Positions 1,481 to 64,000 of a stretch of DNA of 64,000 bases are shown one piece after another (position 1 is the stretch's first letter; each line of letters starts with the position of its first letter). Both the position numbers and the translations under genes were made by a program. Origin of the DNA: Rhabdophis nuchalis (lineage: Eukaryota; Chordata; Lepidosauria; Squamata; Natricidae); the NCBI GenBank assembly GCA_039707465.1, contig CM077652.1:37178618-37242617 (forward strand), in the 5' to 3' direction. The notes under the pieces are model-generated. The model did not search any database. It was given only the letters and a program-made list of their open reading frames with translations, and was not told the DNA's origin.

Positions 1481-1552
1481 TAAGAATTAAGAATCTAATA
1501 TTTTTTTTCACAATTTCCTTTTATAATTCCTAACAGAAATAATTCCAGTTTT

Positions 1553-3692
1553 AATAATAATAATAATAATAATTTAATTTATATCCCGCTCTCTCTCCCC
1601 GAGGGGACTCGAGGCGGGGCACAGGCAATTAAAAATACAAATAAACACAGACAAGTACAAAATACAGAATTAAAAATAAATTAAATAAATCCTGCGCTAA
1701 AACCTATAAACTAAAAATTACCCCTAAAAAACCCTAACCTAAAAAGAGACTACCCAAGGCCGGCCAGACGAAAAAAGTGAGTCTTTAATTTTAAGCGGAA
1801 GGAGCGGAGGTCCGTAGTTGTCCTGATATCGGGGGGAAGGTCATTCCAGAGGGCTGGGCCCGCCACAGAGAAGGCCCTTCCCCTGGGCGTCGCCCGCTGA
1901 CAAAGTCTAGTGGACGGCACCCGGAGAAGTCCCTCTCTGTGGGAGCGAATCGGCCGTGAGGATGTATGGGGCAGGATCCGATCCCGCAGGTAGCTAGGTC
2001 CCGAGCCATGGAGCGCTTTGAAGATGGTAATTAACACCTTGAAGCGCACCCGGAAGACGACAGGTAGCCAGTGCAGCTCGCGCAAGAGCGGTGTTACATG
2101 GGCAAACCTAGAGGTGCCCATAATTGCTCGCGCGGCTGCATTCTGGACCAACTGAAGCCTCCGGGTACACCTCAAGGGGAGCCCCATGTAGAGAGAGTTG
2201 CAATAATCCAGTCGGGATGTCACGAGAGCATGAGTGACTGTGCGAAGGGCGTCCCGATCCAATAGGGGGCGCAACTGGCGTACCAGGCGAACCTGGTAAA
2301 ACGCCCTCCTGGCCACGGCTGTCACTTGATCTTCCATGGACAGCCGGGTATCCAGGAGGACACCCAAGTTGCGCGCCCCATCCACAGGGGCAAGATGTTC
2401 GCCCCCTATGGCCAGCGTTGGAGAGAGCTGGTTGAACCGGGCAGCCGGAAACCACAGCCACTCGGTCTTGGTCGGGTTGAGCCTAAGTCCGTTACTTCCC
2501 ATCCAGATCCGCACGGCTTCCAAGCACTGGCACATCACCGCTACGGCATCGTTGGGGTGGTTTGGGGTAGATATGTACAGCTGGGTGTCATCAGCGTACA
2601 GGTGGTACTCTACCCCAAAACCACGGATGATCTCGCCCAGCGGCTTCATGTATGCGTTAAACAGGAGAGGCGAGAGGACCGACCCCTGAGGCACCCCGCA
2701 TGTGAGGGGTCTCGGGGTCGACCTCTGCTCTCCTGCACGCACAAATTGCGATCGGCCAGAGAGGTAGGAGGAGAACCACCGTAAAATGGTGCCTCCCACC
2801 CCCAACCCCCCCAGCCGATGCAATAGGATACCATGGTCGATGGTATCGAAAGCCGCCGAGAGGTCTAATAGGACCAGGATGGAGGAACATCCCCCATCTC
2901 TGGCCCTCCAGAGATCATCTACCAACGCGACCAATGCCGTCTCGGTGCTATGCCCGGGCCGAAAGCCGGACTGGCGCGGATCTAGATAGTCAACTTCCTC
3001 CAGGTGACGGGGAAACTGTTGTGCCACCACACTCTCAACAACCTTCGCCAAGAAGGGAAGGTTGGAGACTGGACGGTAGTTGTTCAAAAGAGCTGGGTCC
3101 AAAGAGGGCTTCTTGAGGAGGGGCCTCACCATGGCCTCTTTTAGGGAGGCAGGCAAGGAACCCTCACTCAAGGATGCGTTGACAACCTCTTGGAGCCAGC
3201 CTCGTGTCACCTCCCAGGATGCCAGTACAAGCCAGGAGGGGCACGGGTCCAATAAACATGTGGTGGCTCGCAGTCGCCCACGTAGCCTGTCCATATCCTC
3301 GGAAGTAACGGAGTCAAACTCCTCCCAAACAAGATCTCTCTCGTGGCATCCCACTGGGTCATGAATGGGGGTCAGCTCACTCTGTATCTGGGCGGTTTTC
3401 TCCTGCAGAAAAATCACAAATTCCTCTGCTCTACCCTGTAGCGGGGCTTCCCGTTCCCTCTGTTGAAGGAGGTCGCGGGTCACCCTAAACAGGGCGGCAG
3501 GGCGGTTTTCTGCGGATGCTATGAGAGTGGCACAATGATGACGTTTGGCCACTCTCAGCGCCACAATGTAAGTCCGTAAATGGGCTCTTACCTGTGTCCG
3601 GTCAGATTCAGAGCGGCTAGCCCTCCATCTTCTCTCTAGGCATCTCTTGCGGCGTTTCATCACCCGCAGCTCCACAGTGAACCAAGGAGCCA
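1553..3692 (-). mobile_element. 5'-truncated L2-type LINE (copy A)
   Basis: This is a minus-strand non-LTR retrotransposon of the L2/CR1 superfamily, 5'-truncated in ORF2 just upstream of the RT. It is over 95% similar by eye to the copies at 33236, 55800 and 60950. Its 3' end borders AAT repeats (1553-1574; another run at 1416-1475). Confidence 0.88.
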
Positions 3693-3693: not shown

Positions 3694-4416
3694 TTAGTCC
3701 AATTTGCTGTGTCGTAATCTCCTCCAGCTAATCTTTTATTTTTTTTCCAATATTTTTTTTGCCGATGCGCACGTCCACCACACATGGTGGCATGTTCAGT
3801 GTTGTTGTTTGCATTTCCAAAAGATAGGTGAGCACTCCGGGAACATTTTTGCAATTCTCGCTGGTGGGAGAAGCCATCTGTAGAACATCTTGTACATGTT
3901 CTCTCTATATGCCTTTGCCATAGTTAATTTGTAATTTATTTCTCAATTTTTTCCCATTCCGCCAATTCTATGGTATACCCAAAATTTGTTGCTCATATTA
4001 TCATCGTTTCTTTCACAGTTTCTTCTTCCTTTTTAAATTTTAATAAATATATTTTTTAAATCAATTTTTCTTCGGTTCCCTGTAGAATTTTATCCAGTTC
4101 TTGTGGCTCCTTATAAAATCCATCCCTTTCTCTGTCTTTTTTATACCTTGCCTGTGTTTGTAAATACGGCCACCGGCCTACGTCCATTCCCTCGTCTTTC
4201 CATTCTTGCCTTCTTTTGAGTCTTTCTTGGTGATCTAATATGTCTTCATAATGGCATTTCTTGCAGATCTCCCAATGCCCCTCTCTGTTGTCATGCTCTT
4301 CTTTGTAGTCAGTCTGTGTGGTCTTCTTGTTGCAGCTAACTAAGTAGACCACTTCCAATTCTTTGTAGAAGCAGCCTTTGCTGACTGTTGCTGTCTTCTG
4401 GTTTTGTATGTATTTG

Positions 4417-6405
4417 GTTTTTTTTTTTATTGAAAAAGTTTTATTGAGTTTTACAAATTTTTATAACAAAAAGGGTAGGGTAAGGTGAGTTAAAAAGATA
4501 TTTTGAGAACTTTCACGTCGAGAACGTTGGCCCCTCCCGGGCTTCTTAACAAGACATTGGTAATACATCTTTCAATAGTACAACAAGGTGAAAATAAATG
4601 CATACATTAAATTCTAAATTCTATACTGGCAGTCGTATACAAACATCCAGATAAAAAATTATACTGTATTAATAAAAATAAAGATAAAAGTCATTTTTTA
4701 GATCTAAGTCTCTTAGCAATTGTGTCTTCTTGTTCTCCCTCCTGGCCCCCAGCGGGTAGAGCCGCGGCCCCCTCCGTCCCCCCTGAATCTTCCCCCAGGA
4801 TAGAGGAATGTTTTTTAAGAAAGGCTTCCGCCTCAGCAACTGTTTTAATCCTAACTCTTCCTCCTTCCCAGAACACCAGCATCCCTTCTGGCATCGCCCA
4901 CTTAAACCAAGTCCCGTGGTTAAACAATCTTTTAGATAAGAAGGAATATTTCCTCCTCACCTCTCTAATTTTTTTTGGGATCTGCTTCAAGATAGCGATT
5001 TGCTTTTGTTGGTAAATTAACGGACCCTCCCTCTGCGCCTTCAAGATTCCGTCCCTCGTCGACCTTCTAACAAATTTAATATGTATCTCTCTGGGTACTT
5101 CATTCATCCTGGCATATGCTGAATTTATTCTGTAGACTAGGTCAATGTCCCCCCTGATCTCCTCTTTGGGTTTATGTAAATAGTCTGATAAAATTGTACT
5201 CATGAGATCAGGAAGGCATTCACCAGATTCCTCAGAAATATTCTGAAATCTTAAAAAATATGACATCCTCTCAAAATCCATCCTAGACACATGACCAGAC
5301 AAATCTCCAATTTCCGTATTAATATTTTTAAGATCTCCCTTTGCCCCAGCCAGCCCCACCTCCAACTCCTCGGTCTTCTGTGTGTTCTCCATCAATTTTT
5401 TCTGTGTCTCCAAAAGTTCAAGCTTAGTGCTAGTGTGATCTTTTCTAAATTCTCTGATTTCCAGCACCAAGGAGTTTAACACTATTTCCATAGCTGTCAT
5501 TCTCTCTTCCAATCCTAGCTTTCCTGGTTGTTTTTTTGAAGCCATGGTGAGCTGTTTAAGTCAGTGCCACTAAGATGGCGTTTTTTGGGTGCGGCCGCTG
5601 GAGCAAATCCCGGGAAAAAGTTCAGAAAAGTTGTAAAAAAGTGATCCTGTCCAGAGAGCAAAACACTTTCTACTATCAATTATTAAGACAAAGAAGGCAC
5701 TCCAGGGAGGAATCAATTAATCCAGAAAATCATCCGTTGATAGAGGGAGGCAGTCCATATCACAAAGGAGTGTTGGAAATTTTCCATAAAGAAATAAACA
5801 TTCAGGAACAAAGGGCAGCCATCTTCCGCCACCCACTCTGGCAGCCAGCCGGAGAAAATAGCAAAGAAAAATGTTTCAGTAAAGCCAGGCTTAGATACAT
5901 TGTATGAAAGCGGTTGATTTTCACTTGTTCCGCAAAAGTCCGGATGCGAAATATCCGCTCCCTGCATTCCAGGAGCCATTTCTGCGCGCCGCTGTTGTAA
6001 ATCCGAGGGGGGGGTTAGCAAACAAACACCCCCCTCCACGTTTCTCTCATCCAAAGCCGCCAGCAATAAAGTTAAAGACACTTACTCTCCACCTCGCAGC
6101 TCAAGCCCCGGCAAAGCCATCCGACCCGAGCGCTCCGTTCTCTCCGAATTCATTGTTCGTTACCGTCCTCCGTTGGCGAAGGGAACCAAGCCCCCCCCCC
6201 CCCCCCGCAGCATGTCTCCTTCCACCTAGACCGAAGGCAAGGACTGTTCCCCGGCCGCCGCCAGGCTGAACCAGTCCAGGCAAGCCAGTCCTACGGAGGG
6301 ACCCCAAAAAGAAGGGGTACCCCGCCCTGTTTGGGGCAGAAAAAAGAACAAAACGGCGGACAAACCCCAAGGTTCGTCCGTCACCGCCAGAAGCCGGAAC
6401 AGGAA
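4417..6405 (-). mobile_element. ORF1-only L1-like (HAL1-type) element, full length, copy 1
   Basis: This 1989-bp element is flanked by a perfect 16-bp target-site duplication (GTTTTGTATGTATTTG at 4401-4416 and 6406-6421). On the minus strand it consists of a GC-rich 5'UTR (6405-5546), one ORF (5545-4691) and a ~270-bp 3'UTR with AATAAA and a poly-A tail. There is no ORF2 sequence between ORF1 and the 3'UTR. It is inserted in the L1-like relic. Confidence 0.88.
4691..5545 (-). CDS. L1-like ORF1 protein (RNA-binding), copy 1
   Basis: The 284-residue protein has the architecture of L1 ORF1p. An N-terminal coiled coil (residues ~10-95) has heptad-like runs such as LELLETQKKLMENTQKTEEL. An RRM-like segment contains YFLRFQNISE and DIDLVYRINSAYA, and a C-terminal domain has REIHIKFVRRSTRDGILKAQ and RKYSFLSKRLFNHG. 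A basic AKRLRSKK tail ends the protein. From family knowledge, ORF1p trimers bind L1 RNA and act as nucleic-acid chaperones in the RNP. The frame is fully open. It aligns throughout with the ORF at 52147-52995. Confidence 0.85.
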   Translation of the reverse strand: MASKKQPGKLGLEERMTAMEIVLNSLVLEIREFRKDHTSTKLELLETQKKLMENTQKTEELEVGLAGAKGDLKNINTEIGDLSGHVSRMDFERMSYFLRFQNISEESGECLPDLMSTILSDYLHKPKEEIRGDIDLVYRINSAYARMNEVPREIHIKFVRRSTRDGILKAQREGPLIYQQKQIAILKQIPKKIREVRRKYSFLSKRLFNHGTWFKWAMPEGMLVFWEGGRVRIKTVAEAEAFLKKHSSILGEDSGGTEGAAALPAGGQEGEQEDTIAKRLRSKK

Positions 6406-6644
6406 GTTTTGTATGTATTTGTTGATAAGGTTCAGCCTTGTGCAGCTGGAATTAGCCCTTCTGTCTCTTTCTTCAGTTTCCCTGCTCTTTCCTGCCCATT
6501 GCCAGTTCTTGCTTTTGCCTGCTTTTTTATGCCCCGGCCATGTAATACTTTGCCTCTCTTTCCTTCTCGTTTGCTCTTTCTTTTGGGCCAGGTTGGTCTC
6601 TCCAGTACTCAGAAAGCCTTCATGGCATAGTAGCTTCACTACAT

Positions 6645-8982: not shown

Positions 8983-10199
8983 GTGAGTAGCCCTTGCCTG
9001 TAGATTTCCCCCTTCAAGCCCCTTCCTGTGCATCCGTGCTTCCTTGCTTCCCGCTGGTTAGCAATAGCACTTAGACTTATATACCGCTTCACAGTGTTTT
9101 ACAGCCCTCTCTAAGCGGTTTACAGAGTCAGCATCTTTGCCCCCAACAATCTGGGTCCTCATTTTACCCACCTCGGAAGGAGGGAAGGCTGAGTCAACCT
9201 TGAGCCTGGTGAGATTCAAACTGCCAAACTGCAGCTAGCAGTCAGCTGAAGTAGCCTGCAGGACTGCACTCTTAACTACTGCGCTACCTGGGCTCAATGG
9301 ACAGGATGGCGAGACTGTCCTCGGTGTTCTTTTTTTTAAGTTTACCTACTTCTTTGTATTGCTCTAACATGCAAGAAAGAAGAAGAAGAAGCCATCCCGA
9401 AATACGAAGCCAAAAGTAACGAATAGAGAAAGAAACCCCCGCAAAGAGAGCTTCCGCCATTTCCCAGGTGCTTTGCATGGGCTCCCAGCTTCATGCGAGG
9501 TGAGCCCTACAGGCACTCGCCCAGCCCAGCCTCTCCTCCGCAGAGCGGCTTCCTTCTCACCAGAGAGCAGCTCTGGCCCCTCCTTTCCGATTCACAGGGC
9601 AGCTTCGGCCTGCTTCCATTGGCAGGGCAGCCCAGGGCTTCGCCAGGAGAGACCTGCCGAGCGTCTCCTTTACACACACACCCCATTGACCAACCTTTCT
9701 CAGGCTGACCATTTCCCAACGCCTCTGTCCAGCCATCAGAGCTGAGCTTTCCTTCCTCCTTCCTGCGATTGTCCCCCGATTTCTCCCTCGGGTCCTGCAG
9801 GTGGGCTGGCGGAGGCCACGTTTCGCCCTGAGTGTTAGGAGGTTCGGAAGAGTTACCTTGCTAGGAGCTGCCTTTCTTTTCCTTTGCAGAAGAAGCTTCC
9901 CCTCACGACATTCGCACAGAACATGCAGGAAGGCGCCCAGCAGCTCAGCGAGGAAACGCTTCTGGGGTAAGAGGCACTTTCTGTATCTGCCCATCGCTCC
10001 TGGCCTCTTCGCACATGGAGACGGTGCCGCCTCTGAGGGCCAGGCTCCCTTTCCCCTTTCGGCCCTGCACGCTCACTAAACACAAGCGCTGAGGAATCCA
10101 TCCTCTGGTCATGGATTCTTAGAGGAAGAAGCTGTTTCCACGTAGCAATAAGGGCAAGTGGCTCAAAGCTTTGCATGCCCCAAAGACAAGGTGCCTCTA

Positions 10200-16200: not shown

Positions 16201-19200
16201 GGTCCTGACCTCCAGGGATGGACTTTGTGGTCCTTTGATACTGCCAAGCAGCAATTCCCACCCTCTGACCTTACAGTTGGGGCTGCTGGCCTTTGTAGTT
16301 CAGCAACATTAGGAAAGAGCACCGTTTTGGGGGCCTTGCTGGGCCCCAAGGCTGAAGGTTGCAATACAAGCACACCCTTGCAGAAAGGACTATTTCAGGG
16401 CCTAGATTCCCTCAAGCCATCCAATCTGTTCCATCCCAGCCTATCGGAGAGATTTAATTCAGTGCTGCACCTTCCAACTCTGCTTCGGAGTGGGCCATCA
16501 AGTATTCGCCCTTTGTGTCTGCAGGGGGTTGAAGGCAAAACAGCTTTGGGGAAGCATCACGTGTCTCGGAGAGCTTTCAGAGTTCCCCTTTCTAAGTTCT
16601 TCCTGAATAACTAACAATCTGCTCAGGCGCCTCTGTCTTCATCTTTTGATTTGGAAGAGAATTGAAATGGTCTTAAATGTACTTAGCAGACTGGAGAGAA
16701 TTGAAATTATTTGTATGGGCCATTTGGCAAAACTCACGTCACTCTCCAGATTGTTTAATTGAGAAAGGATATTTATTTATTTATGTACTCACTCTGTGTA
16801 TAGCTGCCCAATCAGCATGAAGCTCAGGGTAACCAACGCAATTAAAAGCAGTTGTTGTTGTTTTTTTAAAATGGCAGGCTGGGAACCTCCAACAACTCCA
16901 GTTAAAAATAGTCCAAATTGGCATGCACGTGTGTGCGCACACACACACACACACACACACACACCTACCTGACCCAGAGCCTTGGAAGAAGGCCTGGGCT
17001 TCAGAGCCTTGGGAAAGGCCAGCAAATTTGAGGTCATCCATAATTGGGGTTGGTTTAGATTGCCAGCAGTTGGATGACAATACTGCAATGGAAAAAGCTG
17101 TTGAATACCTTTCTAGGAGCCCTGGTGGCTGAGTGGTTAGAATGCAGTATTACAGGCAGACTCTGCCCACTGCCAGGAGTTCAATCCTGACCATCTCTAA
17201 GTTGACTCTCAGCCTTCCAAGATCAGTAACATGAGGATCCAGATTATTGAGGGCAACATGCTGACACGGTAAACTTCTCAGAGAGTGCTGTAAAGCACCA
17301 TGGAGTGGTATGTAAGTCTAAATGCTTTTGCTATTCCTGATTGGACAGAATTGTCACCATCTGTTTTCCTGGGAGGAAACTCTGATCGCTGAGAAATCAC
17401 CTTTCCTTTCAAGAACAGCTCACCCCTGGCCACTTAATTCACCAGGGGTGGATCTTCCTGCCTTAGCTACCTGCTCTCACCCTTGTGGCAACCCAACCTG
17501 CTTTTAGCATCCCTTGCCACAAAGACCTCCGGGACTGGGAAGCCTCGCAAGAAAAACCAAGGAAGATTTACTGCTTAACTAAATTACCTGATAATTGAGA
17601 GCATGCCTCAAGCGTTGTTGCAGCCAACATCACTATCTTGTTTTAGTTCCTGCTCCCAAATCACGTATTTTCTAGCAACTGTGTTACGTGGGTGTAAATG
17701 GCTTCAAATGGCTTCAGTTTCTGAAGAACTGCAAAAAATCTCCCTGGGTTGATTACCTGTCATTCGATTTTGCTCCCTAAGCATGGTGGTTGTGGCGGCA
17801 TTCTGGACCTCACCCAAGTAGTTCTGTTGGAGAAGCCCCGCCCCGCCTAGGGGTCACCTCTTTGTGGCCAATCCAGCCACCTCAGCCTGTGCACATCTGG
17901 GTCCATCTCTCCCAGGCTGCAGACTTGGCTTCTGGTTCTTCCCGGGGACAAAATTTAAAGGGCTCTGCCGTCAAATGGCTCAGATCTTCTTGTGTGCTGC
18001 CTAATGACCAGACTGCAGATCTCTTCCCCACATCCCCCCCGGCTGGTGGTTTCCGAGTGGTGTAGCTGACTTGTAATTCTGCTTCTCTAACTAGACAAGT
18101 GGACTGAAAAACCAGCTTTCGGGACTCCCCTGGAGGAGCACCTCAAGCGTAGCGGCCGAGAAATCGCCGTCCCCATCGAGGCCTGTGTGATGATGCTCTT
18201 GGAAACAGGCATGAAGGAGGAGGTGGGTCTCTTCTGCTGTGTGGGGCAGGTTCAACTGCTGGGCTGGAAGAGCCCTGGGCTCTTCTCTTGCACATACAGG
18301 ACGGGCCAAGGCTGGTGGTAGCAGTGCCCCATTTATTTCATCCCACCTTTATTCTTTTACAAATAACTCAAGGTAGCAAATGTATCCAACACACTTTCCT
18401 CCTTTTTCCCCCTACAACAAACAACAACAACCCTTTGAGGTGGGTTGAGCTGATAGAGAGGGACTAAGGTCACCCAGCCGCCTTTCGGTGGGACTTGAAT
18501 TCACGATCTCCTGCTTTTTAGCTTGGTGCCTTCACCACCTAGACCTGTGATGGCGAACCTATGGCATGCATGCGCGCGCTGGCCACCTGAATTCGCCCTT
18601 TTTTGAAGCCATTTTGCACCCTCCCCAGGTTCCAGAGGCTTTATAGGAGCCTGGGGAGGGCGAAAAGAGCCTCCCCCCCCCCCCCGAGGTCCTCCAAAGG
18701 CTTAATGAGCTTCCCTGAAGTCTCTGGAACGCTCAAAATGATGCTCCAAGCAAATCGGCCGTCACTTCCGGCTTGGTCGGAGTGTCATTTTGAGTGCTCC
18801 AGAGCCTTTCCAGGCACTCCGGAGACCCTCCGGAGGCTTCAGCGACCTTCAGGAGGCTTCAGAGCAGTCAAAATGACGCTCCAACCAAACCAGAAGTGAC
18901 GTCTGATTTGCTCGGAGCGTCTTTTTGAGCGATCCAGAAGGTCGCTGAAGCCTCCGGGGGGGGGGGGAGACTGTTTTCACCCTCCACAGGCTCCTATAAA
19001 GCCTCTGGGGAGGGCAAAAAGAGCATGCAAAAAATGGGGGGGTCATGCCTGTAGTGCGTGCATGCGCACTGGGGGGGTTGCACATTCCATTATGGGTGCG
19101 GCACGCCCACGCATGACCCCTCTGCACTCCCCCTACTTATGGCACGCAAGCCCCAAAAGGTTCGCCATCACTGACCTAGACCCAAGTGGCGCTTGAGTTG

Positions 19201-22200: not shown

Positions 22201-25200
22201 CAGCTTTGCACGTAAAGTCCTGTTGCACCTGGGAATCAAAGGGATACCTTTTAGGTGACTCTTAAGAGAACATTTTGTTTTCCCTCAGCATCCAGGACCA
22301 AGATAAGAAACTGCAAGACCTGTGGAGGATTTGCCAGAAATTGCCAAAGCCTAACCTGGCCAACTTCAGGTAGGTCAAGCTCTCGAAGGCTTTGCAACAT
22401 GGATCTGTCTTCCCTCCTTGGCTTTAAAACGGAGAATTCCAGGACGCAGAAGCTCAAAGAATGTGTTCATTGTAATATTATGACCTCCCTTGGAAATGGA
22501 ATGTTCTGCGTTGTTGGCCACTTTTACGTTTGCAGTACAAACTCTAGTCTAGAGAATGCCAATCGTAGAAGCCAGGCTGTACCAATTGGTAGTTATGCTC
22601 TGCGACGTGAGGCAAGGGTTTGGCATGGAGGCACCGGACACTGTGTTTATAATGTTCTAGAAGACAGGTATCAACTTTGGCAACTTTACGGTCTGTGAAT
22701 TTCAACTCCCAGAATTCCCCAGCCAGCCAGGTCTTAAAGTTGCCATGGCTGGACCCCCATCTTCTAGAACAGTGATGGAGAACCTTGGGGGCCACGAGCA
22801 TGCCCACCCCATAACTTAATGCCCCCCTGTGCCATGCCCCCTGTGCATGCATGCATGACACCATCCCCCCCCCCTCCCCCCGGTACCCTGCATATGGGCA
22901 CACGGCTTTCTTGGAGCCTGGGGATGGTAAAAACAGCCTCACCTGCACCCTCCGGAAGCTGGAAATGGCCCATATTCCGAGTTCCGGTTTGCATGTTGTG
23001 CTGGTTTTTGCCCTCCGGAGGCTTCAGGGAAGCCTCTGGAGAGCAAAAAATAGCTGAAAATGAAGGCCAAAATCAGCTGGTCAGCATGTGCATGCGCACT
23101 GGATTTGACAGGGCAATGTCTCGCGTACCCTAAGAAATGGCTCGGTGTGCCACGCGTGCCATAGGTTCGCCATCACAGTTCTCGAGGCAGAGCAGGGGCT
23201 CGGTTCCTGAACTGCCACACAGCCCCAGTGTGGGACTATGGCCCAATCCCCAGTGGAATATGAAGGAATCATACAAATGTTAAAATAGTCCTACCATCTC
23301 CAATATGAAGGAAAACCATTCCATTAACTCAGGAGAGGCGGCTGCCCAGCCTCTTCATAAACGTCTCCACGGAAGATGGTGAACTCAAAGCCTCCACCTA
23401 TGGAACTGTCGCTTAGAAAACTTGAACAAGGATTCCAGTGGATGCTCTGAAGTCCCCTGAGTAAGCCCTCCAAAGCATTTCCCACGCTTACTTGTGTGCT
23501 CCTGTCCAGGCAAGAATTGAAATTCACATTGCCTTTGTGGAGTTTTTGTACCGTATTTCCGTCTGGGACAGTCTGAGCTGAGTACCTTGGACTTTTCTGT
23601 GAGCAGCGATGCCTTTGATTCTCCAGAGAGCCTAACACCGATTATTCCTTGCAGGTATTTAATCAAATTCCTTGCAAAACTCGCACAGTATAGTGACGTT
23701 AACAAGATGACTCCTAGCAACATTGCCATTGTGCTGGGCCCAAATCTGTTGTGGGCCAAGAATGAAGGGTAAGTGTTGAATTCTAATACTTGAATTGCCA
23801 AATCAGCAGAGTCAGGCCAATCCCCACTGGCCGCCCTGCTTCTCTTGCCTTTGGCAGCTCTTCTTTGAACTTCAGATAGGGGGCGCTTGGCCAAGGAGCA
23901 GCGAATGTTGAATATGTGTAGGGTTATATTTTTGGCCTAGCTCTTTAACGGAAAAGGTCCGGCACAAACTAAATCACTGCATCATAAGTCAGGACTGTGC
24001 CATTTCTTCGCTTTTGTGCAGAGACGATTAATAGCACCACAACGGAGATTTTTATTATTCAGATCTGCGAGTCCTAAGGTTAGTTAAAAACTTAAGCTGG
24101 TCCAGGCAATCCATCTCCGCAGATTTTCAGAATGTAGGAAGAGCCGAGGGGCCAAAGGTGACACTGGAGGGTACGCACCCTGTCGCCCAGAAGCAACCCT
24201 GGAGAAGGCTGTGTCCCATTGGGACAGCTCTGGAAGCCTCAGGCAGCATCTTCAGAAGAGCTTCTCCTGAAAGCTGGCCAAGAGAAAAAGCCCTCGGGGG
24301 GAGGGAACCTTGACCTTTGAACTCCTCACTTGTGCCCAGTAAACAGTTGGCAGCCACCCAGACATTCCACCAGGCATCCTTTGACCCCGGTGAGCAGGAC
24401 TGATTAGATCTCATCAGCTTCCTTGATTGCTGAGGACATCTTTTGAGCCCCTGGTCTTCTCTCCCCAGCTCTCTTGCAGAAATGGCAGCAGCAACTTCAG
24501 TCCACGTGGTTGCCGTTGTTGAACCCATCATCCAGCACGCCTCCTGGTTCTTTCCTGAAGGTAAAGAAAGCACTTTTTCTTCTTGGCGTGTGATTCTTAT
24601 TGTTCTGCCTAGGAAAGCTGGCAGCAGTGGTGGGTTGCACCCAGTACGGGCGTACCGGACCCTACTGGAGCACCGGACACCGTTCTGGTATGGCGCTCCG
24701 GAGGGCCCGCCCACCTGCCTGCGCTCCTTACCTGTCCTTTAAAGCAGGGGTCTCCAATCTTTGCAACTTTAAGTCTGAAGGACTTCAGCTCCCAGAATTC
24801 TCCAGCCACCTCTGATCTAGATGTTGAACTGTATTCCTATAATTTGGTGAGCCATTCTTAGAAGGGATGAGACATCCTTTCTAATAAAAGGCATAAAATA
24901 TCCTTGCATGTACAAAGCTAACCTGGGCTATTTTATGAGACTATATAGTTTAAAAGCTGCAGTTGAAAAGGATCACATACTCACCTTTTAAGATTTGCTT
25001 CATTCTTCTATGAATCATTTTCCCGAAGTATTGTGCTTTACAGCAATGCCAGTTGTAAAAACAGTATCTATATTTTCAACAATTTTTATAAAATGAATAT
25101 AGTATTAGCACTTAGACATATACCGCTTCACAGTGGTTTTACAGCCCACTCTAAGCGGTTTAGAGAGTCAGCCTCTTGCCCCCAACCATCTGGGTCCTCA

Positions 25201-28200
25201 TTTTACCCACCTCGGAAGGACGGAAGGCTGAGTCAACTTTGAGCTGGTCAGGATTGAACTGTTGTCAGTGTGCAGAATTAGCCTGCAATAACTGCATTTT
25301 AATTAGGAAGGGAGGGAGGAAGGCAGAGCACTTAGATTTATATACCACTTCACAGTGCTTTGCAGCCCTCTCTTAGTGGTTTATAGAGTCGGCCTCTTGC
25401 CCCCAACCATCTGGGTCCTCATTTTACCCACCTCGGAAGGACAGAAGGCTGAGTCAACCTTGAGCTGGTCAGGATTGAACTGTTGTCAGTGTGCAGAATT
25501 AACCTGCAATAACTGCATTTTAATCACAAGGGAGGGAGGAAGAGCACTTAGATGTATATACCACTTCGCAGTGCTTTGTAGCCCTCTCTTAGTGGTTTAT
25601 AGAGTCGGCCTCTTGCCCCCAACCATCTGGGTCCTCATTTTACCCACCTCGGAAGGACAGAAGGCTGAGTCAACCTTGAGCTGGTCAGGATTGAACTGTT
25701 GTCAGTGTGCAGAATTAACCTGCAATAACTGCATTTTAATCACAAGGGAGGGAGGAAGAGCACTTAGATGTATATACCACTTCGCAGCGCTTTGTAGCCC
25801 TCTCTTAGTGGTTTATAGAGTCGGCCTCTTGCCCCCAACCATCTGGGTCCTCATTTTATCCACCTCGGAAGGATGGAAGGCTGAGTCAACCCTGAGCTGG
25901 TCAGGATTGTGGGCAGAATCAGCCGGCCATACTGCATTTTAATCACTGTGCCACTAGGGCTGTAAGGTGACTTGGGTGGCTTACAAGGTTTAAAACAAGC
26001 AGAAAAATAATTAAAACGTTAAAACTACCCAGATTAAGATTTTAACTCGAAACTGAAACCAGAACTAAGAGACGGGCAGGACAATATCCTCTTACCATGT
26101 CAGCCACTTCCAGCTATGAGGACACACATCCAGATGTGGCCCCAGGCACACCAGCAAAACACCTTTCAATACCTTCCGGAAGGGCTTCAGGGAGGGGGAG
26201 TTCTCACCTCCAGTGGTGGAGTGTTCCGCAGGGATGGGGCCTCCATGGAAAAGGATCTTCTTGAACCCGCTGCTGGAGTTCCTTAGCAGACGGGGGCTGT
26301 AGCAGGTCTCTTCTGGTGGCGCGAGTGGGGCAGGCTTGTCCCATTGGGGAAAGATGGACCCATTGGCATGTAGGACTTTAAGGTAACAACGAACATCTTG
26401 AATTGGATCCAGAAGCAAACCTGTGAGCGATGCAGCTTGTGCATTGTTATATGTGCAACCCTAGTGATTCCAGGACTGTGCGTGCCACTGCAGGCCCATT
26501 GTGTTGTATTGCTTTCTCCGACTGTTTTAATCTGGAAAGGGAAATAAAAATGAATTTACCTTAATACTTGCAAGCAGAAGCCGAACGGTACTTTTGTCCT
26601 CTGAAGTTGAGTTCTGGGCCTGAAGGCGATGCTCCTCTAAACCGCCTGGATTTTCATGCTTATTCCTGAATCCGCAGAGCTGGACTTCAATGTGTCCGGG
26701 GCATTTGTGGGGCAGCCGGCTGTGAACTCCAACCACCTTCCTGCGGGGAGTGACTATGATTCAGGGACCCTGGAGCGGAAGAGGCCAGTCAGCATGGCTG
26801 TGATGGAAGGAGAGCTGCTGAGAAAGGAAAGGTAAAGGGAGTGTTCCTTCCCTTCCTCCATCCTATTGGGGGCTTAGCAGGGTATTCAACACCATTAGTT
26901 GCTGTTTAACTTAAGTCAGAGGCGTTTGAAGTTCTTTCAGAGGTCACAAACGGGTTGAGTCAACAGTCCCTTTCTTGGCACATAAGAAACGAAAGATTTC
27001 TTTGTCTAATGAAGAAAAACAGATCAGATTCTTATCACGAAAGAGTCTTGTGGGCTCTTTCACCTACCCCACCCACCCCGAATGTTGCCTAGTGAATGAC
27101 GTTTCAATTGTGGCAGAAGTTGGCACTCATTTCTAACGTTAGCTGCCACTCACAAGTCTTGTGCCTCTGAGAATGATGGCCTTCATGCTGTAGATTAGCA
27201 GCCAATCTGAGAGGTTCCATCCAAAGTGGTTTACAGCCGGGGTCTCCAACCTTGGCAACCTTGGATTCTGGGAGTTGAAGTCCCCAAGTCTTAAAATTGC
27301 CAAGGTTGGAGACCCCTGGTTTGGAGTGTTAAACATTATCGATGGTGTTCCTCTCAGTCACCAAGCCTGGGAGGCGCAAATGTATCCCCTTGAGTACCAA
27401 GGTGCGCAGGGTGTCGGGCCCAAAGTCCTCATTCCAGGAAACCTGGAAGCTTCTTTAAAAGGGCACCTGCTTCAGTGAGCCCCCAAAGGCATCTGATGGG
27501 CTTCCTGAAGGGATTCTGCAGTCGGGCATGGCGTGTGTTGACCGAGAGGAACTGGGCATGCCTGGGGCCATGGCCAGCCATCCCTGAGTGGTGCCTTTCC
27601 CCTCCTTACTGCAGCCTCAGGAAGATCCAAAGGTAATGTACGTGCCATTCTTTCCTTCTCACCGTGTTCCATGCATGATAGAAGCCCGAGGGAGACCTCA
27701 CGCTGTGGGAGCAGATCCCCCTTGGGATCCCCGTAGGGCCTGCAAGAAGGAGTCCCTGCTGGCAGCCCTCACGATGAACGGTTAAAGGCCCCTTTTCTAT
27801 AATCCACCACCACCCAAAGCTCTTTCGTCACACCAGTCGCCTCCCCAGAAATTCTACCATGTCTTTGGAACACCAAATTTCAGTCTGGAAATTTGCTGTG
27901 ATTTTAGTTGGAAGAGTGGTTTAGCCGAGGTTGTTTATATCTGTGTGCTTTGGGCTTCCCTGAACACTGTTGTATCCTGACTTCCAATGTGAGCCACTTG
28001 GCTTTTCCTTGCCTTACTAGCAGCTAGACCAGGGATCTCAAACTCCCAGCCCTTCAGGGGCCACGCCCGGTTGACGTCCAGGCGTCCTAAAGTTGCCACG
28101 GTTGAGAAGCGCTGACTTAGAGGCAAGTAGCTGAGGCTGCTGGCTGGCAGAGATGGCTCTGGCCACATTCACCACAGATGCCGAGTCCGCTGGCTCTGGG

Positions 28201-31200: not shown

Positions 31201-34200
31201 AAGCGGCCAAGTCTTTCCCGAGGAACAGCCGTTTCTCAATCAGAGAAACCACTTTGCCCACTTTGGATCGGAAGGGAGACCGACAAGGAAGGGATTTCAA
31301 CACTGGGGTTTGGGGTTTTTCCCCTTTTCAGTTGTGGTCACCTTGCAGGAGGGCCAGAGACAAGGTTTTGCATGGCATTGGCTACTTGGGCTATTTCACA
31401 CCACCAAGAGAATGCAGAACTTGCTCCAAAATCAGACGGTTAAATGTGGCTGACTTGGAGTCTCAAGTTACTCAAGTGATCAATCCTTTGGGGGATAAGA
31501 TGTATTGGAGGAGGAGCAGAGCTGGGAAGGGAAGCGAGAACGCTCTGTCCAGCAAAAGAGTACACGGAAAGATTTCTTTGTTTGGAAAATGGATGTCGGC
31601 ACCCATGTGTCATACACAGGACTCTGGTGCAAAGTAAACACACACACACACAGCTAGACAACAAAAGAACCCCAAGCAAAACCAAGAGACCCACTTCACT
31701 CTTCCTGTTGGAACCGATGGAATGGGTACGTTAGATTCGACTGCTGGGTTGAGGCTAATTTTGGCCAGGGAGGCATTGGGCAGGCTGGGCAGGCAGGGAA
31801 GGACAACGGGGGAGAAGCTCTCCCACTGCATTCTGCTCTGACCACAGGGGTGTCCAAACTTTGCAGCTTTTAGTCTTGCGGCCTTCAACTTCCAGAATTC
31901 CCCAGGCAGCTGGGATGGGGAGTTCAGTTCTGGGAGTTGAAGTTCACAAGTACTCGACTTTAGAGAGCCCTGCAGGCAATCCTCTAGGAGAGGACACGGC
32001 GCATCCCTCTCTTGAAAAGAGGCTGCCAGGCTGGGCCTTCTGTGGTCATACAACCTCCATCCAATTTCAGGATCCCCGCGAAACGTGGCGTTCCTCAGAC
32101 AGGGGCCAGGGGCCTTTTTCAGTCCAGGTGCCCAGCACTTATTGTAGCCCGTGGAATAATCAGAAGCTTCGTGCTCGACCACAGTCTCAGCCATGTCTCT
32201 TCCTTTTGCTCTCTTCCAGCCGTCAAGAAACCTGCACCGGCCCCTCCAAAGCCAGCAAACCCACCTCCGGGACAGCCAGGGACCCCGAATCCCACTCCAG
32301 CCTCCAAGCCCCACACAAGGAGCCCTTCTCCTCCCAGCCAGCAATCAAACCAAGGGAGCGTTCAGCCTTCTGCTGCCCTGTCCCAGATTTCTGCCCCCCG
32401 GCGATACTCGAGCAGCGTCTCCCCGATACAGGCTCCCAACCACCCGCCCCCCCAGCCCCCCACGCAGTCCGTAACACCACCTCCACAGACCAAGGCTGGT
32501 AGTTTTGGACCCTCCCCGCCAGGCCCAGAGGGCGGGTCAGAGCCGCTGTCGCCCACCCCTCCGCGTACCCCCACCCCACCTGACACGCCCCCCCTGGAGA
32601 AGCACAGCACCGCCTGCCCATCCGCCCAACCTTCAGCCCAGGACATTCCACCGGCTCAGTCGCCTCCTCCGTCTGGCACGCTCCCGAGGCCCCGGCCGGT
32701 GCCCAGACCTCGCAACCGTCCCACGGTGCCCCCTCCGCCTCACCCTCCTGCTCCCCATCTGTCTGCAAACGGTTCTCTGCTGGGTCCTCCGGCAACAGCG
32801 TCCCACATCGTGACTGGTAAGAACCCCCTCGGCTCCTCTCAGGCATGTCTTTGAGCCCCTGCTTTGATGGAGGAATGCTCTCCCCCAGCGGGGACGGCCA
32901 AAGGAAGCCCCCCCCCCTCAAAGCAAGCCAGTTACGGCTGTCGGCCAGCCCTCCATGGGGGAGCTGCAGGGCCCAGTTCCTGTCCCTTGAGATTAGCAAA
33001 GTCCACGGATGAGATGACAAATGCAGATTAACTGGGTTCATAGCAGCAACTAGTCTAGATAGGAGCATAGCGCATCATTGAAGAAAGGAAACAGGGAACA
33101 TATTGGAGCAAACGTGGAATGGGTGAGCCCATTTCAGTGTTCAGGTCAAGGTTTTGGCTTCCTTTTTAACAACAAAGGCATCCTCAAGAGTTGGACATCA
33201 GCAGTCCTCATTTTGCGTTCTGGGCTTTTGCATATCAGGCTACGTGGGCGACTGCGAGCCACCACATGTTTATTGGACCCGTGTCCCTCCTGGCTTGTAC
33301 TGGCATCCTGGGAGGTGACACGAGGCTGGCTCCAAGAGGTTGTCAACGCTTCCTTAAGTGAGGGTTCCTTGCCTGCTTCCCTAAAAGAGGCTATGGTGAG
33401 GCCCCTCCTTAAGAAGCCCTCCTTGGACCCAGCTCTTTTAACCAGCTATCGTCCCGTCTCCAACCTTCCCTTTTTGGCGAAGGTTGTTGAGAGTGTGGTG
33501 GCACAACAGTTTCCCCGTCACCTGGAGGAAGTTGATTATCTAGACCCGCGCCAGTCCGGCTTCCGGCCCGGGCATAGCACCGAGACGGCATTGGTTGCGT
33601 TGGTCGATGATCTCTGGAGGGCCAGAGATGGGGGTTGTTCCTCCATCCTGGTCCTATTAGACCTCTCGGCGGCTTTCGATACCATCGACCATGGTATCCT
33701 ATTGCATCGGCTGGGGGGGTTGGGGGTGGGAGGCACCGTCTTACGGTAGTTCTCCTCCTACCTCTCTGGCCGATCGCAATTTGTGTTGGCAGGAGAGCAG
33801 AGGTCGACCCCGAGACCCCTCACATGTGGGGTGCCTCAGGGGTCGGTCCTCTCGCCTCTCCTGTTCAACACATACATGAAGCCGCTGGGTGAGATCATCC
33901 GTGGTTTTGGGGTAGAGTACCATCTTTACGCTGATGATACTCAGTTGTATATATCTACCCCAAACCACCCCAACAATGCCGTAGCGGTGATGTGCCAGTG
34001 CCTGGAAGCCGTGCGGATCTGGATGGGAAGTAACGGACTCAGGCTCAACCCGACCAAGACCGAGTGGCTGTGGTTTCCGGCTGCCCGATTCAACCAGCTG
34101 ACTCCAACGCTGGCCATAGGGGGCGAACATCTTGCCCCTGTGGATGGGGCGCGCAATTTGGGTGTCCTCCTGGATACCCGGCTGTCCATGGAAGAGCAAG

Positions 34201-37200
34201 TGACAGCCGTGGCCAGGAGGGCGTTTCACCAGGTTCGCCTGGTGCGCCAATTGCGCCCCCTATTGGATCGGGACGCCCTTCGCACAGTCACTCATGCTCT
34301 CGTGACATCCCGACTGGACTATTGTAACTCTCTCTACATGGGGCTCCCCTTGAGGTGCACCCGGAGGCTTCAGTTGGTCCAGAATGCAGCCGCGCGAGCA
34401 ATTATGGGAACCACTAGGTTTACCCACATTACACCGATCTTGCGCGAGCTGCACTGGCTGCCTGTCGTCTTCCGGGTGCGCTTCAAGGTGTTAGTCATCA
34501 TCTTTAAAGCGCTCCATGGCTCGGGACCTAGCTACCTGCGGGATCGGATCCTCCTCATACATCCTCACGGCCGATTCGCTCCCACAGAGAGGGACTTCTC
34601 CGGGTGCCGTCCACTAGACTGTGTCAGCGGGCGACGCCCAGGGGAAGGGCTCTCTCTGTGGCGGGCCCGGCCCTCTGGAACGACCTTCCCCCCGATATTA
34701 GAACGACTACGGACCTCCGCTCCTTCCGTCTGAAATTAAAAACACACTTTTTCCGCTTGGCCGGCCTAGGCTAGTCTCTCTTTCTATGGGGTTTTAAACT
34801 TATTTATAGCTGCTGGGTATTTTAGTTTAACGGGTTTTAGCACAGGAATAGATTTAATTTGTTTTTATATTATGTATTTATATTTGTATATTTATTGTTT
34901 TTACTTTCCCTGTGCACCGCCCCGAGTCCCTGTGGGGAGAGGGAGCGGTTTACAAATTAAATTTGATGATGATGATGATGATGATGATATCATCCTTTGC
35001 TAGTCCTCATTCCTTCCCACCAACGGTAGCAGTGCAGCCTTCCCTCTGATTTTCCTCTGCCATCAAAATGGTTTCCCTTCACACCGAAGAACATTCAAAG
35101 ACGTCAGCTTTCCTTCCTGTGTTGTTATAGCAGCACAGCCAGTGCTCAGGAGAGGCAGCGTTTAGCCTTTTTGCTCTGTGGGTTCCTTCTTTCCTTGCTG
35201 CCCAGACGGGGTGCTGGTGGCCTTTTCACACGGACTTGTGTTCAGAAACATTGGGAAAAGCTCAGTGCTGCTGCTAGAGGATGGCTGAATTTTATCATGC
35301 TCAGATTGTCAATGGCAGACAAGGGGAATTAGCCATTTATTCTTTGATTTAAGCCCCGTCCCTTGCTAGCTAACCAAGTAATTTCCCTGTTGGTGCAGTG
35401 CATACTTGATTCATTTATTGCAGATTGCATCAATATTTACAAGCTCTTTTTATTTCTTAATCTGGATTGGGCGCTTTTTAATAACGCTTAATGTTAATTT
35501 ATAGCCGCATATTAGGACAAAACCTTGACTCCTGGCAGAATGAAATAGCGCATGCCCATCTCTTAATTTTAGCAGACTCTAACATGGAACCCTTGCAGAC
35601 TTGTAATGGCTACTGGAACAGAACAAGTTTCAGCTGCCAAAATAGCCCTTTGAATCTTTAGATTGTAATATACCTACAAATAATATTCTAATTGAGAATT
35701 TTATTAAATAATCTAGATGTTTGAGCTGCCTTATTCAATAGGAACTGAAATTGGAAATGGTAAGAGGAAATTGAGGCCTTCCGATTGGCCGGATATGTTG
35801 CAAATGTTGCATAATCATGGATGCTGCTTTCGTTCCTTACTAACCGGTCACCGTAACCTGGCTTGCTTGCACCTGGACTAATCCTGCATGTGAAAGGAGT
35901 GATGCTTTTCTTGTCCATTGTTTGTAATGTTGATCTCCATTTTAATGCAATCTGGTCTCCTGCCCCTCCCCGATCCATACTTGTCAACCTTCCATCAGCA
36001 GACACTGGAATGAATTTCTGCTTTTCAAAATCTTTAGAGCTTCGTAGCATGTCCAGATAGAAGTAAAAGGTGCACATCGAGAGGCACGCGTAAACTCTTC
36101 TTCCCTCCACCCTTGTGCTGACGAATTTGCAGTCTTGAGTTCTCTCCCACAGAGAGCTAAACGCAACCTTGCAGATCCATGCCAATCCTGGCACGGGTTG
36201 CTGTTCCCTTATAGTGTGAACGGGGCACCTCCTGCACGGGGCTTAAACATGCAGGGTAAGAAGAACCTGAGAGAAAGGCCTCTCGCATGGCATGGATTGG
36301 AAGCTCAGGTGAATTATGGATTCTTCATAAAATACAAACTTGATGTGATCTTGGAATAAGCAGCCGTTGCCCCAAGCAAGTTGGTGTGCATTCTTTGGCC
36401 GTAGTTGCAGTATTGCTGGCCAAGACCTCTGGCAAGCGTGGTGTCTCATCTTTTATGTGTAGAGACTCGGCTCCAAGTACTGCCTCATTTGCTGGAGGTA
36501 ACCTTGAGTTAGAAAGAAGAGACAGCAGCCAAAGCATCTTTCTGGGGAAGAGCAGACTGGAGCCTTTAACATTCCTCACCTGCAGAGAGAAATCTTGCCA
36601 AACTAAAGCAGCTACTTGCATCATGTAAGATCTACTGGAGAATGTCTAGGGAGGAGCTGCCTTGGCCCTCTTCCTCCCAACCAGACTATCTAAACCTAGA
36701 CCCTGTCTCTTGGTCCTCTGGCCTGCAGCCTCTCCCTCCTGGGAAGCCAGAGAACATTCCACCACACACGCAGAGGCCGAAAAGCAGGCAATGCGACCCC
36801 CTGCCCTGCCCCATGCCCCATTATGCAGTAGCAGCAACCAACCCTATGGAAGGTTGGGATCATTAAAGCGTTTCCATTAGAGCCAAGTGAGGGCCGGTGT
36901 GATGGTCAGACGGGCAGAGAGCCGTGGCTGGATTTGCATTTCTGATGGTGAGGAAATGTACAAGAACAGGTGCAACTCCATTTTGCAGTCATTGTGCATT
37001 AAAAGGGAAAGGATACCTTTGACCCGTCACACCAGGGCTGCACGTCTGTGGAAATGAAGTCCCACCTGCATGTCAGATGTCTTTTCACCTTTTCGTTGAG
37101 GGGGAGAAGAAAGTTGGTTCCAGTGTAGAAACAGCCTAGCTTATGTTTCTTGGATTTTGAAATGAGAGCTAGGTAGCCATGACAGGCAAGTTTCCCCACC

Positions 37201-41124: not shown

Positions 41125-50183
<9,059 letters not shown>

Positions 50184-51680: not shown

Positions 51681-51870
51681 AAGGGTCTGCCTCTCCTCTC
51701 CGTTCAGGAAAGTAAAGACTCTTGAAACATCAGCATTTCAAAAGGAAGATTTTATTGAAGGAGAGGGATTGCAAGACAAAAGAAAGCCGGATCTAAAGTT
51801 CCTTACAAACTTGAAATTTGGCATGTATGTTCCTCTTGGCTTTTAAGTGCTCGCTAAGAAAGGATTTTTT

Positions 51871-53857
51871 TTTTTTTATATTGAAAAAGTTTTATTGGTT
51901 TTACATTTTTTCTATAGGGTAGGGTAAGGGATACAAAGAAATTTTGAGAGCATTCACGTCAGAGTCGTCGGCCCCTCCGAGACCTCAAAATACACAATAA
52001 AAAAAAATAACAAAAAAAAGCATTTTTCATAACACTACAAGGTAAAAGCAAGTACATATACCTAAATTCTCAATTCCATGCTGTCAGACATTTACAAAAA
52101 ATCCAGAAAATATTATGCAAAATTGTTCAGGAAAATCAAGGCAAAGTTATTTTTTCGATCTAAGTCTCTTGGCTATTGTATCTTCTTTTTCTCCTCCCTG
52201 GCCCCCAGCGGGCGGGGCCGTGGCCCCCTCCGTCCCCCCTGGATCTTCCCCCAGGGCAGAGGAATGTTTTTTAAGAAAGGCTTCCGCCTCAGCAACTGTT
52301 TTAATCCTCACTCTTCCTCCTTCCCAGAACACCAGCATCCCTTCGGGTGTCACCCACTTGAACCAAATCCCATGATCAAATAAAATTTTAGACAAGAAGG
52401 AAAATTTCCTCCTTGCTTCTCGAATCTTTCTAGGAATCTGCTTCAAGATAGTGACCGTTTTTTGTTGGTAAATTAAAGGGTTCCCTCTCTGCGCCTTCAA
52501 GATTTCCTCTCTGGTTGACCTTCTAACAAATTTCACATGTATCTCTCTAGGCACTTCATTTATCCTGGCATATGCTGAGTTAATTCTATAAGCTAGGTCA
52601 ATGTCCCCCCTGATCTCATCCTTAGGTTTTTGTAAATAGTCTGCTAAAATTGTGCTCATAAGATCAGGGAGGCATTCACCAGGTTGCTCAAAAACATTCT
52701 GAAATCTCAAAAAATATGTCATTCTTTCCATATCAATCCTAGACACATGCCCACTTGTTTCCTCAACCTCTTTAGTAACATTTTTAATCTCTCCCTTAAC
52801 CCCCACCAGCCCCCCTTCCAATTCTTCAGTCTTCTGTGTGATTTCCAGCGTTTGCTTCCGTGTGTCCAATAGCTCCTTCTTGAAAATGATGTTTTCTGCC
52901 CGCTGGGCCTGAATTTCTTGAACCAAAGTTTGTATAACAGTTTCAAGAGAAGCCATCCGTTGTTCTAAACTTGTCAGTGCTGTTTCTTGAGCCATCTTAA
53001 CTGTTAGAGTTAGTGCCACCAAAATGGCGTTTTCAGGGTGGGGCTGGTGAGACTAACCGGGAGCCAAAAGTTCAGATCAAGGTTGGAACGTTGTAAAATT
53101 CAGGAACCAAGAGAGAGACAATTTTCCAACTCAATAGTTATAATAACGAAGGTAATCCAGAAAGGAACCACAAATCCAAAAAAAAAAATTCTTCATTAAT
53201 ATCCAGAGAGTCCCAATTGTAAAAAGACGCTGGAAATTTTCCATAATTAAAATAGTCAGGCAGGGACAAAGAAAAGCCACTTTCCACCGCCCATCTCAGA
53301 GCCCAGAGGAGAGAGTAGAAAAATAATTTTTTTTTTTAACCAGCCAGACCTAGACACAATGTTGCAAGTAGCCGCATACCACTTTCCCTTGTTAGAGACA
53401 GTCCGGATTTAAGATTTCCGCTTTCTCTTCCAGAGAAGCCATTTTAAAGTGCCGCTTAAGTCCGAGGGGTTTTTTTTGAAAACAAACACCCCCCTCCCAG
53501 TCCATTCAACCTGGCTGGCAGCAAGGAAAAAAAGTCTTTTTAAAACTCACTCTCCCTCGCAGCTGAAGCCTCGGCAAGCCTTCCGATCTCTTCCGCTCAG
53601 CCCTCTTCATTAAAGTGAATGGCGCCGACAGCCGTTGGCGAAGGGAGAACCCCCCGCAGCATGTTCTCCTTCACCTAAGGCACGGCAAAAGGGTCGCCTC
53701 CCCCACCGCCGTGAGGGGGGGCGTCCCTGCCGAGCCGGCCCTACGGGAGACCCCCAAAAAAGGGGCGTCTCGCCCCCGTGGGGGGGCAGAAAAAGCAACA
53801 AAACGGTGAGCGAGCGCTAGGCTCGCTCGTCGCCGCAGGAGCCGGAACCGGAAGTCC
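51871..53857 (-). mobile_element. ORF1-only L1-like (HAL1-type) element, full length, copy 2
   Basis: This 1987-bp element is flanked by a perfect 15-bp duplication AAGAAAGGATTTTTT (51856-51870, 53858-53872). It has the same layout as 4417-6405: a GC-rich 5'UTR, one ORF, a ~270-bp 3'UTR with AATAAAACTTTTTCAATA and poly-A. The 5' edges of the two copies also match (CTTCCGGTTCCGGCTCCTG versus CTTCCTGTTCCGGCTTCTG on the minus strand). ORF2 is absent. Confidence 0.88.
52147..52995 (-). CDS. L1-like ORF1 protein (RNA-binding), copy 2
   Basis: The 282-residue ORF1p has a coiled coil (LLDTRKQTLEITQKTEELEG), an RRM-like part (YFLRFQNVFEQ, GDIDLAYRINSAYARINEVP) and a C-terminal domain (EIHVKFVRRSTREEILKAQR, RRKFSFLSKILFDHGIWFKW), ending AKRLRSKK. 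I chose the ATG at 52995 (MAQETALTSLEQRM) because it aligns with the start of copy 1. An in-frame ATG nine codons upstream exists. The frame is fully open, and by eye roughly three quarters of residues match copy 1. Confidence 0.85.
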   Translation of the reverse strand: MAQETALTSLEQRMASLETVIQTLVQEIQAQRAENIIFKKELLDTRKQTLEITQKTEELEGGLVGVKGEIKNVTKEVEETSGHVSRIDMERMTYFLRFQNVFEQPGECLPDLMSTILADYLQKPKDEIRGDIDLAYRINSAYARINEVPREIHVKFVRRSTREEILKAQRGNPLIYQQKTVTILKQIPRKIREARRKFSFLSKILFDHGIWFKWVTPEGMLVFWEGGRVRIKTVAEAEAFLKKHSSALGEDPGGTEGATAPPAGGQGGEKEDTIAKRLRSKK

Positions 53858-54079
53858 AAGAAAGGATTTTTTGAAATGACCATCAGATCATTACTATTTC
53901 TTAATACAGTAATTAACACGCTGTAATGCTAAGGAGTTCTAATCCCTCTCCCCACCTGAAAAGAACTTTGTTCCAACTGCCAGTTGCCTTATATTAACAC
54001 ACTCCAACCCTCATCCCTTATATTAACGCACTCAACAGATTGATCAAGAGCGTTTTGCCAGTGTCACCAACAGTGTCAA

Positions 54080-55368: not shown

Positions 55369-55757
<389 letters not shown>

Positions 55758-60223: not shown

Positions 60224-60649
60224 TTCTCTCTGTCTATTGATTCCAAATGCATTTTAATGGGTTCTTAATCATTTTTAGCACGGGTAACATTGTTTAATTA
60301 TGTTTTAAAGTATGTATTTTGTATTTATTGTATATTGTTTTTAGTTTCTCCTGTGCACCGCCCCGGGTCCCTGTGGGGAGAGGGTGCGGTCAATAAATCC
60401 GAATTTGATTTGATTTGATTTGAAAAGTTAAAGGCTCAAGGATTCTTACACAAATAGGAATATCATGCAAGGCCCAGAGAATAAATACTGTTTCCAGCAA
60501 AGGGAACATGAGTCAGAGGTGCTTCTTAAATCAGGCTGCAGCCAGCTGTGATCAATAAAAGATTTACTCTCTTTCTTCGAGAGACGCCTAATAGAACCAT
60601 GTTGCTCAGCCTCCAGTCTGCTTTCTAGGAGGCCTGACATCATCTAAAG

Positions 60650-62680: not shown

Positions 62681-62714
62681 TTAAATTATTTATTATTAAT
62701 TGAAATAATATTAA

Positions 62715-63450: not shown

Positions 63451-64000
63451 GAGGGAAATTCAGGTATGTTGGGTTGATTGGAAATCCTCCTGAGCTTTTC
63501 AGTATTCCTGCAACATATGGAATGACAACATTGCTCCATTTGTTGTCCTCTTTTTTTTCCTGTAGTGGAGGAGCTCCTGCTTGGTCTTTGTTGGGATTTA
63601 CTGAAGGTCTGGTTAGGAGAGCCATGCATTCCGAGGGCTTCCTTGGTGTGTTTTAGTTCTTTTTCGTGTCTCTCTTCACTGCTCAGCAAACTTTCAGCCC
63701 AGGGGTGTAGGGTTCTGATCACGCCCATGTTGTGCTCCAGTGGGGGGGTGAGAATCCAAATGCAAATACTGGTGTGTGTGTGTGTTAGTTTTCTATAAAC
63801 CTCAGTGTTAAGGCATCTGTCTTCCTTCGTGTGAACTGCACAGTCCAGGAAATCCAGACTGTTTTCCGTAACATCTTCCCATGGGAACTTAACGTCTCTG
63901 TCCACAGAGTTGATGTGTTTTGCGAAGGCTTCCACCTCCTGTGCTTTAATCTTGACCCAAGAATCATCCCTATAACTATACCAGTGAGTGGGTGGGATTC
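63450..64000 (-). mobile_element. Penelope-like element fragment (window edge)
   Basis: The minus strand has EAFAKHINSVDRDVKF, ENSLDFLDCAVHTKEDRCLN followed by TEVYRK, then LEHNMGVIRTLHPWAES. This matches the C-terminal RT region and linker of Penelope-like retroelements (FLD...VYRKPT block). The GIY-YIG endonuclease end is not visible, because homology gives way to the Rex1-like fragment near 63450. A GT run (63771-63784) interrupts the frame. The element continues beyond the window. Confidence 0.68.

Follow-up and report, generated by a model that had tools for sequence, protein, structure and literature searches.

A probable HAL1-like family of ORF1-only L1-clade retrotransposons in a squamate genome

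The DNA analyzed here is a 64,000-base stretch of contig CM077652.1 of the squamate Rhabdophis nuchalis (the window), which carries two copies of an element that resembles an L1 retrotransposon with its first open reading frame (ORF1) alone. Copy A, a complete ORF1-only L1-like element of 1,989 bp, occupies positions 4417 to 6405. A preliminary description of the sequence had placed this unit between exact 16-bp repeats, and a string count confirmed it: the repeat, GTTTTGTATGTATTTG, starts at 4401 and again at 6406, and nowhere else in the window. Copy A lies on the minus strand, a point absent from that description, with one target-site duplication (TSD) on the 3′ side of the element at 4401 to 4416 and its exact 16-bp match on the 5′ side at 6406 to 6421.

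Feature mapping bore out the proposed layout of a 5′ untranslated region (UTR), one intact ORF, and a 3′ UTR with an AATAAA signal and an A-tail, without ORF2. The 860-nt 5′ UTR (5546 to 6405, minus strand) is homologous to the 5′ UTR of copy B and presumably acts as an internal promoter; its first 350 nt have a GC content of 61% and an observed/expected CpG ratio of 0.82. ORF1 (4691 to 5545, minus strand) begins with an ATG at 5545 in a good start context, CAGCTCACCATGGCT, and runs for 284 codons to a stop ending at 4691, encoding 284 amino acids; its sense strand is biased in base composition, with 34% A and 23% T. The 3′ UTR and A-tail together make up 274 nt (4417 to 4690, minus strand), again homologous to copy B, with AATAAA at 4445 to 4440, an A11 tail at 4428 to 4418, and a single extra C beyond the tail at 4417.

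The preliminary description had also spoken of two such units, and the second proved real. Copy B is a complete ORF1-only element of 1,987 bp on the minus strand at 51871 to 53857, with an ORF1 of 282 amino acids (52147 to 52995, minus strand) whose protein is 72% identical to that of copy A. It is flanked by its own exact 15-bp duplication, AAGAAAGGATTTTTT, found in the window only at 51856 to 51870, on the 3′ side, where an A/T run merges with the tail, and at 53858 to 53872, on the 5′ side. The two copies align end to end at about 72% identity. The 5′ end of copy B lies 4 nt further upstream than that of copy A, and none of 1,000 shuffles aligned as well over the first 60 nt. Downstream of ORF1, the 3′ UTRs (274 nt in copy A and 278 nt in copy B) become homologous within about 50 nt of the stop codon, since only 1 of 1,000 shuffles was as good over the first 50 nt and 0 of 1,000 over the first 90 nt. 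Identity to copy B over the final 100 nt of copy A, with the A-tail counted in, is 82% (74 of 90 columns).

Neither copy contains a further ATG-started ORF of at least 150 amino acids on either strand, or a reverse transcriptase (RT) ORF. Among ATG-started, stop-ended ORFs in both units, the longest on the sense strand after ORF1 has 88 amino acids and lies in the copy A 5′ UTR; 3′ of ORF1, no sense ORF of this kind exceeds 37 amino acids in either copy, frames open at the ends being outside the listing. Thus, the ORF2 with endonuclease (EN) and RT that marks an autonomous L1 is missing from both, and corresponding ends without ORF2 were found in 2 of the 2 copies in the window. Searches of the 64-kb window with Rfam (gathering scores) and ARAGORN found nothing.

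The single ORF had been read as an L1-type ORF1 protein (ORF1p), an assignment upheld by the sequence profile, by the fold match to human L1 ORF1p, and by coiled-coil heptads. When the structure model of ORF1p was submitted to Foldseek, the ten best rows were all human L1 ORF1p. The protein is laid out as a coiled coil (helix at about residues 9 to 82), an RNA recognition motif (RRM; about 93 to 188), a C-terminal domain (CTD; about 189 to 253), and a disordered tail. Identity to human ORF1p over whole-chain structural alignments was 15 to 19%.

Relatives of this ORF1p, known here from proteins alone, numbered four by plain search and nine by profile search; five of the nine are named, and all of these are snake proteins. 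In a tree of nine rows, from which P0008 and P0009 were left out (33% and 18% query cover), P0001 and P0002, both encoded on short contigs, form one clade with copies A and B (support, 100/100); the remaining five rows, three of them named snake proteins, are separated from that clade by internal branches of 1.5 and 0.4 changes per column. Pattern matches in viral contigs (18 and 1) and prokaryote contigs (60) yielded no relative confirmed by tblastn, and such contigs could hardly hold one. The squamate host deduced in the preliminary description is supported by these snake relatives and by an RT gene at 1750 to 3660 in the same window. Among the best 120 of 7,332 matches to that gene, the best scoring were snake and lizard proteins (Pituophis, Varanus, Salvator, Erythrolamprus, and Naja), with tuatara, fish, and coral ranking lower; identities were 82% over 33% of the query for Pituophis, 82% over 35% for Ahaetulla, and 79% over 60% for Naja.

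Comparison of the two copies indicated that ORF1 has been conserved above its surroundings. The ORFs are 79.2% identical (672/849), against 62.9% for the 5′ UTRs (523/832 columns) and 68.0% for the 3′ UTRs (170/250 columns), the UTR divergence corresponding to 0.4 to 0.5 substitutions per site. The ratio of nonsynonymous to synonymous divergence (dN/dS) was 0.26 by NG86 (0.164/0.638), 0.37 by YN00 (0.183/0.489), and 0.39 by LWL85 (0.158/0.408). By part of ORF1, NG86 gave dN and dS values of 0.37/1.28 for codons 1 to 90, 0.096/0.58 for codons 91 to 190, 0.077/0.37 for codons 191 to 248, and 0.068/0.34 for the remainder. Differences by codon position were 46/40/90 (chi-square, P = 3e-6). Furthermore, when neutral evolution of the copy A ORF was simulated with substitutions only, in three runs at the observed divergences, both frames stayed open in 0 of 2,000 pairs at each divergence. 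Because the ORF is conserved above the UTRs and dN/dS is 0.26 to 0.39, these sequence comparisons imply that ORF1 is a frame that was under selection during at least part of the divergence of A and B; the element may have been with or without ORF2 during that time.

The time since insertion looks small for both copies, given their exact TSDs and the rapid loss of ORFs under simulated drift, in which only 7% of ORFs remain open after 6% substitution. The divergence between A and B would therefore have arisen more in active source lineages than in dead copies. One stretch, 4802 to 4888, departs from the general pattern: it matches copy B at 86 of 87 bases, while the ORFs otherwise differ by about 20%, and synonymous change is low over residues 220 to 265. 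This patch differed from the rest of the ORF beyond residue 90 at a Fisher P value of 0.018, and in 10,000 permutations the counts were 61 for a 40-codon window, 247 for 30 codons, and 730 for 20 codons, each window having been selected after the data were seen. The cause may be gene conversion, recombination, or an RNA signal, the statistic being weak; as a sign of an RNA signal, folding of the patch was unremarkable (z of 0.47 and 0.11).

What is directly supported is the full-length structure, the hallmarks of insertion, a fold of the L1 ORF1p type, and selection on ORF1 as the two copies diverged. In our judgment, the copies probably represent a squamate family of ORF1-only, non-autonomous retrotransposons within the L1 clade, similar to mammalian HAL1 (half-L1; Bao and Jurka 2010, as cited in PMC5322556, PMC5753468, and PMC4859970). 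Such a family may derive from an autonomous L1 of its own host by loss of ORF2, perhaps independently of mammalian HAL1. A plausible extension is that the common ancestor of A and B was already ORF1-only. The fuller proposal of a long-lived ORF1-only lineage, in which an ancestor without ORF2 gave rise to at least two branches, each with a recent insertion, while ORF1p stayed under purifying selection, is one to which we give slightly less than an even chance.

In the proposed cycle, RNA polymerase II (pol II) would transcribe the element from its own 5′ UTR, and the mRNA would be polyadenylated after AATAAA. Translation would yield only ORF1p, a putative coiled-coil RNA chaperone that may coat its own mRNA in cis. 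An autonomous L1 would presumably supply ORF2p, the EN/RT enzyme, in trans, and the element RNA would be inserted by target-primed reverse transcription. PMC5322556 holds that HAL1 requires the RT and EN of a full-length LINE (long interspersed element) and predicts a relaxed L1 system for lizards, and a marked RNA with ORF1 is cited as retrotransposing in culture (PMC4859970). A pol II-driven Alu transcript needs ORF1p besides ORF2p (PMC2666806), which offers a reason for a pol II element to keep ORF1, unlike a SINE (short interspersed element) made by RNA polymerase III (pol III).

Several observations weigh against this interpretation. Only two copies were examined, both within one 64-kb window. 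The structure model has a mean pLDDT of 69 and a pTM of 0.40, and over the whole chain it aligns to L1 ORF1p with low TM-scores (0.24 to 0.30 by query). In sequence searches, phmmer with a single sequence reached L1 ORF1p only at an E value of 0.53, a keratin coiled coil scored equal to L1 ORF1p in the profile search, and neither ORF matched a Pfam family at an E value of 0.001; Transposase_22, the L1 ORF1 model, was found in four of the nine aligned sequences (best E value, 0.001), copy A not among them. Over the 30 nt that follow the stop codon, the copies show no clear alignment (57 of 1,000 shuffles were as good), so the junctions left by two losses of ORF2 might not be the same. Finally, the L1 endonuclease consensus is TTTT/A, and the insertion site of copy A, ATTTG/TTGA on the bottom strand, does not match it; the site of copy B, TTTTTT/GAAA, is a partial match.

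The unclear junction bears on the idea that two full-length L1 lineages each lost ORF2 separately, for instance through an internal deletion or through a splice joining a site near the ORF1 stop to the 3′ UTR, with no lasting ORF1-only lineage and with the selection signal in ORF1 stemming from autonomous ancestors. Splicing of human L1 mRNA followed by reinsertion is known from SpIREs (PMC5860796), and mammalian HAL1s arose independently several times (PMC5753468); the poor alignment just after the stop fits as well. The homologous 3′ UTR, however, starts close to the ORF1 stop in both copies, and two random deletions would rarely coincide in this way, although splicing at conserved sites could; SpIREs, moreover, are generally evolutionary dead ends (PMC5860796). 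We regard separate losses as unlikely. This explanation overlaps with that of an ORF1-only family on the nature of the copies, and the probabilities of the two are not exclusive.

The homology of the 3′ ends also counts against the copies being L1s truncated at the 3′ end by internal premature polyadenylation, with the apparent 3′ UTR being the spacer between ORF1 and ORF2 or the beginning of ORF2. Both L1 RNAs that were polyadenylated prematurely and insertions truncated at the 3′ end have been described (PMC4859970), and polyadenylation signals are abundant in lizard L1 (PMC7140322). Yet both lineages end homologously after 274 and 278 nt with closely similar final segments, and the ORFs that follow ORF1 are all short in the sense already given, which makes truncation improbable. 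Still less credible, indeed very improbable, is that the copies represent no transposon family and are retrocopies of a host gene that was domesticated from L1 ORF1. Such a gene, L1TD1, exists in mammals (PMC4161310), and copies of its mRNA would likewise show poly(A), TSDs, and a single ORF. However, the UTRs differ by 32 to 37% while ORFs and TSDs are intact in both copies, which points to at least two diverged sources, unlike one slowly evolving gene, and P0001 and P0002 fall in the clade of A and B, as expected of a multicopy family. Rather than a single-copy gene at a conserved locus, we found two dispersed, diverged copies with TSDs, no search for a parent gene having been made elsewhere.

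The reading of the copies as an ORF1-only family would matter because the role of ORF1p has mostly been studied where the same element produces ORF2p as well. A selected ORF1 beside drifting UTRs, with no ORF2, amounts to a natural experiment, and it suggests that producing ORF1p in cis may benefit even an element that borrows its enzyme, in contrast to pol III SINEs, which encode no protein. If A and B share an ORF1-only ancestor, a comparison independent of mammals is gained. If the long-lived lineage is real, ORF1p would be no mere remnant but a function that acts in cis and is maintained by selection in a non-autonomous element, and the split between ORF1 and ORF2 could be stable over long times.

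Other repeats occupy parts of the window. At least five related EN/RT LINE stretches, possibly of the L2 or CR1 type and with mutual DNA identity of 77 to 93%, lie at 1551 to 3692, 33236 to 34967, 47551 to 48489, 56962 to 60409, and 60952 to 62699, one of which holds an endonuclease ORF of 668 amino acids (56962 to 58968) followed by an RT part. An RT fragment on the minus strand at 63143 to 63625 (RVT_1, E value of 7.4e-9) comes from a different LINE and has no other match in the window (tblastn, E value of 1e-8). A tandem array at 25107 to 25909 consists of 3.7 copies of a 216-bp unit with 94% matches, and related stretches occur near 9059 to 9213 and 17118 to 17334. Long trinucleotide microsatellites were observed near the 3′ ends of LINE fragments, at 55369 to 55492 (AAT, 41 copies, perfect) and 1417 to 1487 (TAA, 24 copies).

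Among known systems, L1TD1 shares with these copies a coding sequence derived from ORF1p without ORF2; it is a host gene, whereas the copies are dispersed and diverged and have TSDs. SpIREs resemble them as L1 RNAs that lack a segment and were reinserted, but the SpIREs described in PMC5860796 lose sequence of the 5′ UTR, or of the 5′ UTR and ORF1, and not ORF2. With full-length L1 the copies share the proportions of their UTRs (near 900 nt for the 5′ UTR and near 300 nt for the 3′ UTR in human L1; PMC5322556), the coiled coil reported for all vertebrate ORF1ps (PMC9410894), and a sense-strand A bias (43% A and 24% T in lizard L1; PMC7140322). They differ from it in having no ORF2 and in an A bias weaker than the lizard L1 average. 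The preliminary description had noted that HAL1 is known from mammals, which PMC5753468 corroborates, and activity has been described for the HAL1 of rat (PMC8535693). No ORF1-only L1 of squamates or other non-mammals is named among the literature titles and abstract openings listed, which is weak evidence, and the main texts of two papers on squamate repeats (PMC6050309 and PMC8303610) mention neither HAL1 nor ORF1. Like HAL1, the element encodes ORF1p alone, has a poly(A) tail and TSDs, lacks RT, and would be expected to depend on L1 ORF2p in trans; an L1-type ORF1p without ORF2, together with poly(A) and TSDs, was found in both copies (A11 and 16 bp in copy A; an A-tail and 15 bp in copy B). 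It differs from HAL1 in its squamate host and in an ORF1p whose clade is distant both from the named snake relatives and from human ORF1p, and the likeness to mammalian HAL1 drawn here is one of structure. The kind of element is known from mammals, and what this case adds is a diverged, recently inserted pair with ORF1 under selection, probably a new member of the HAL1 kind outside mammals.
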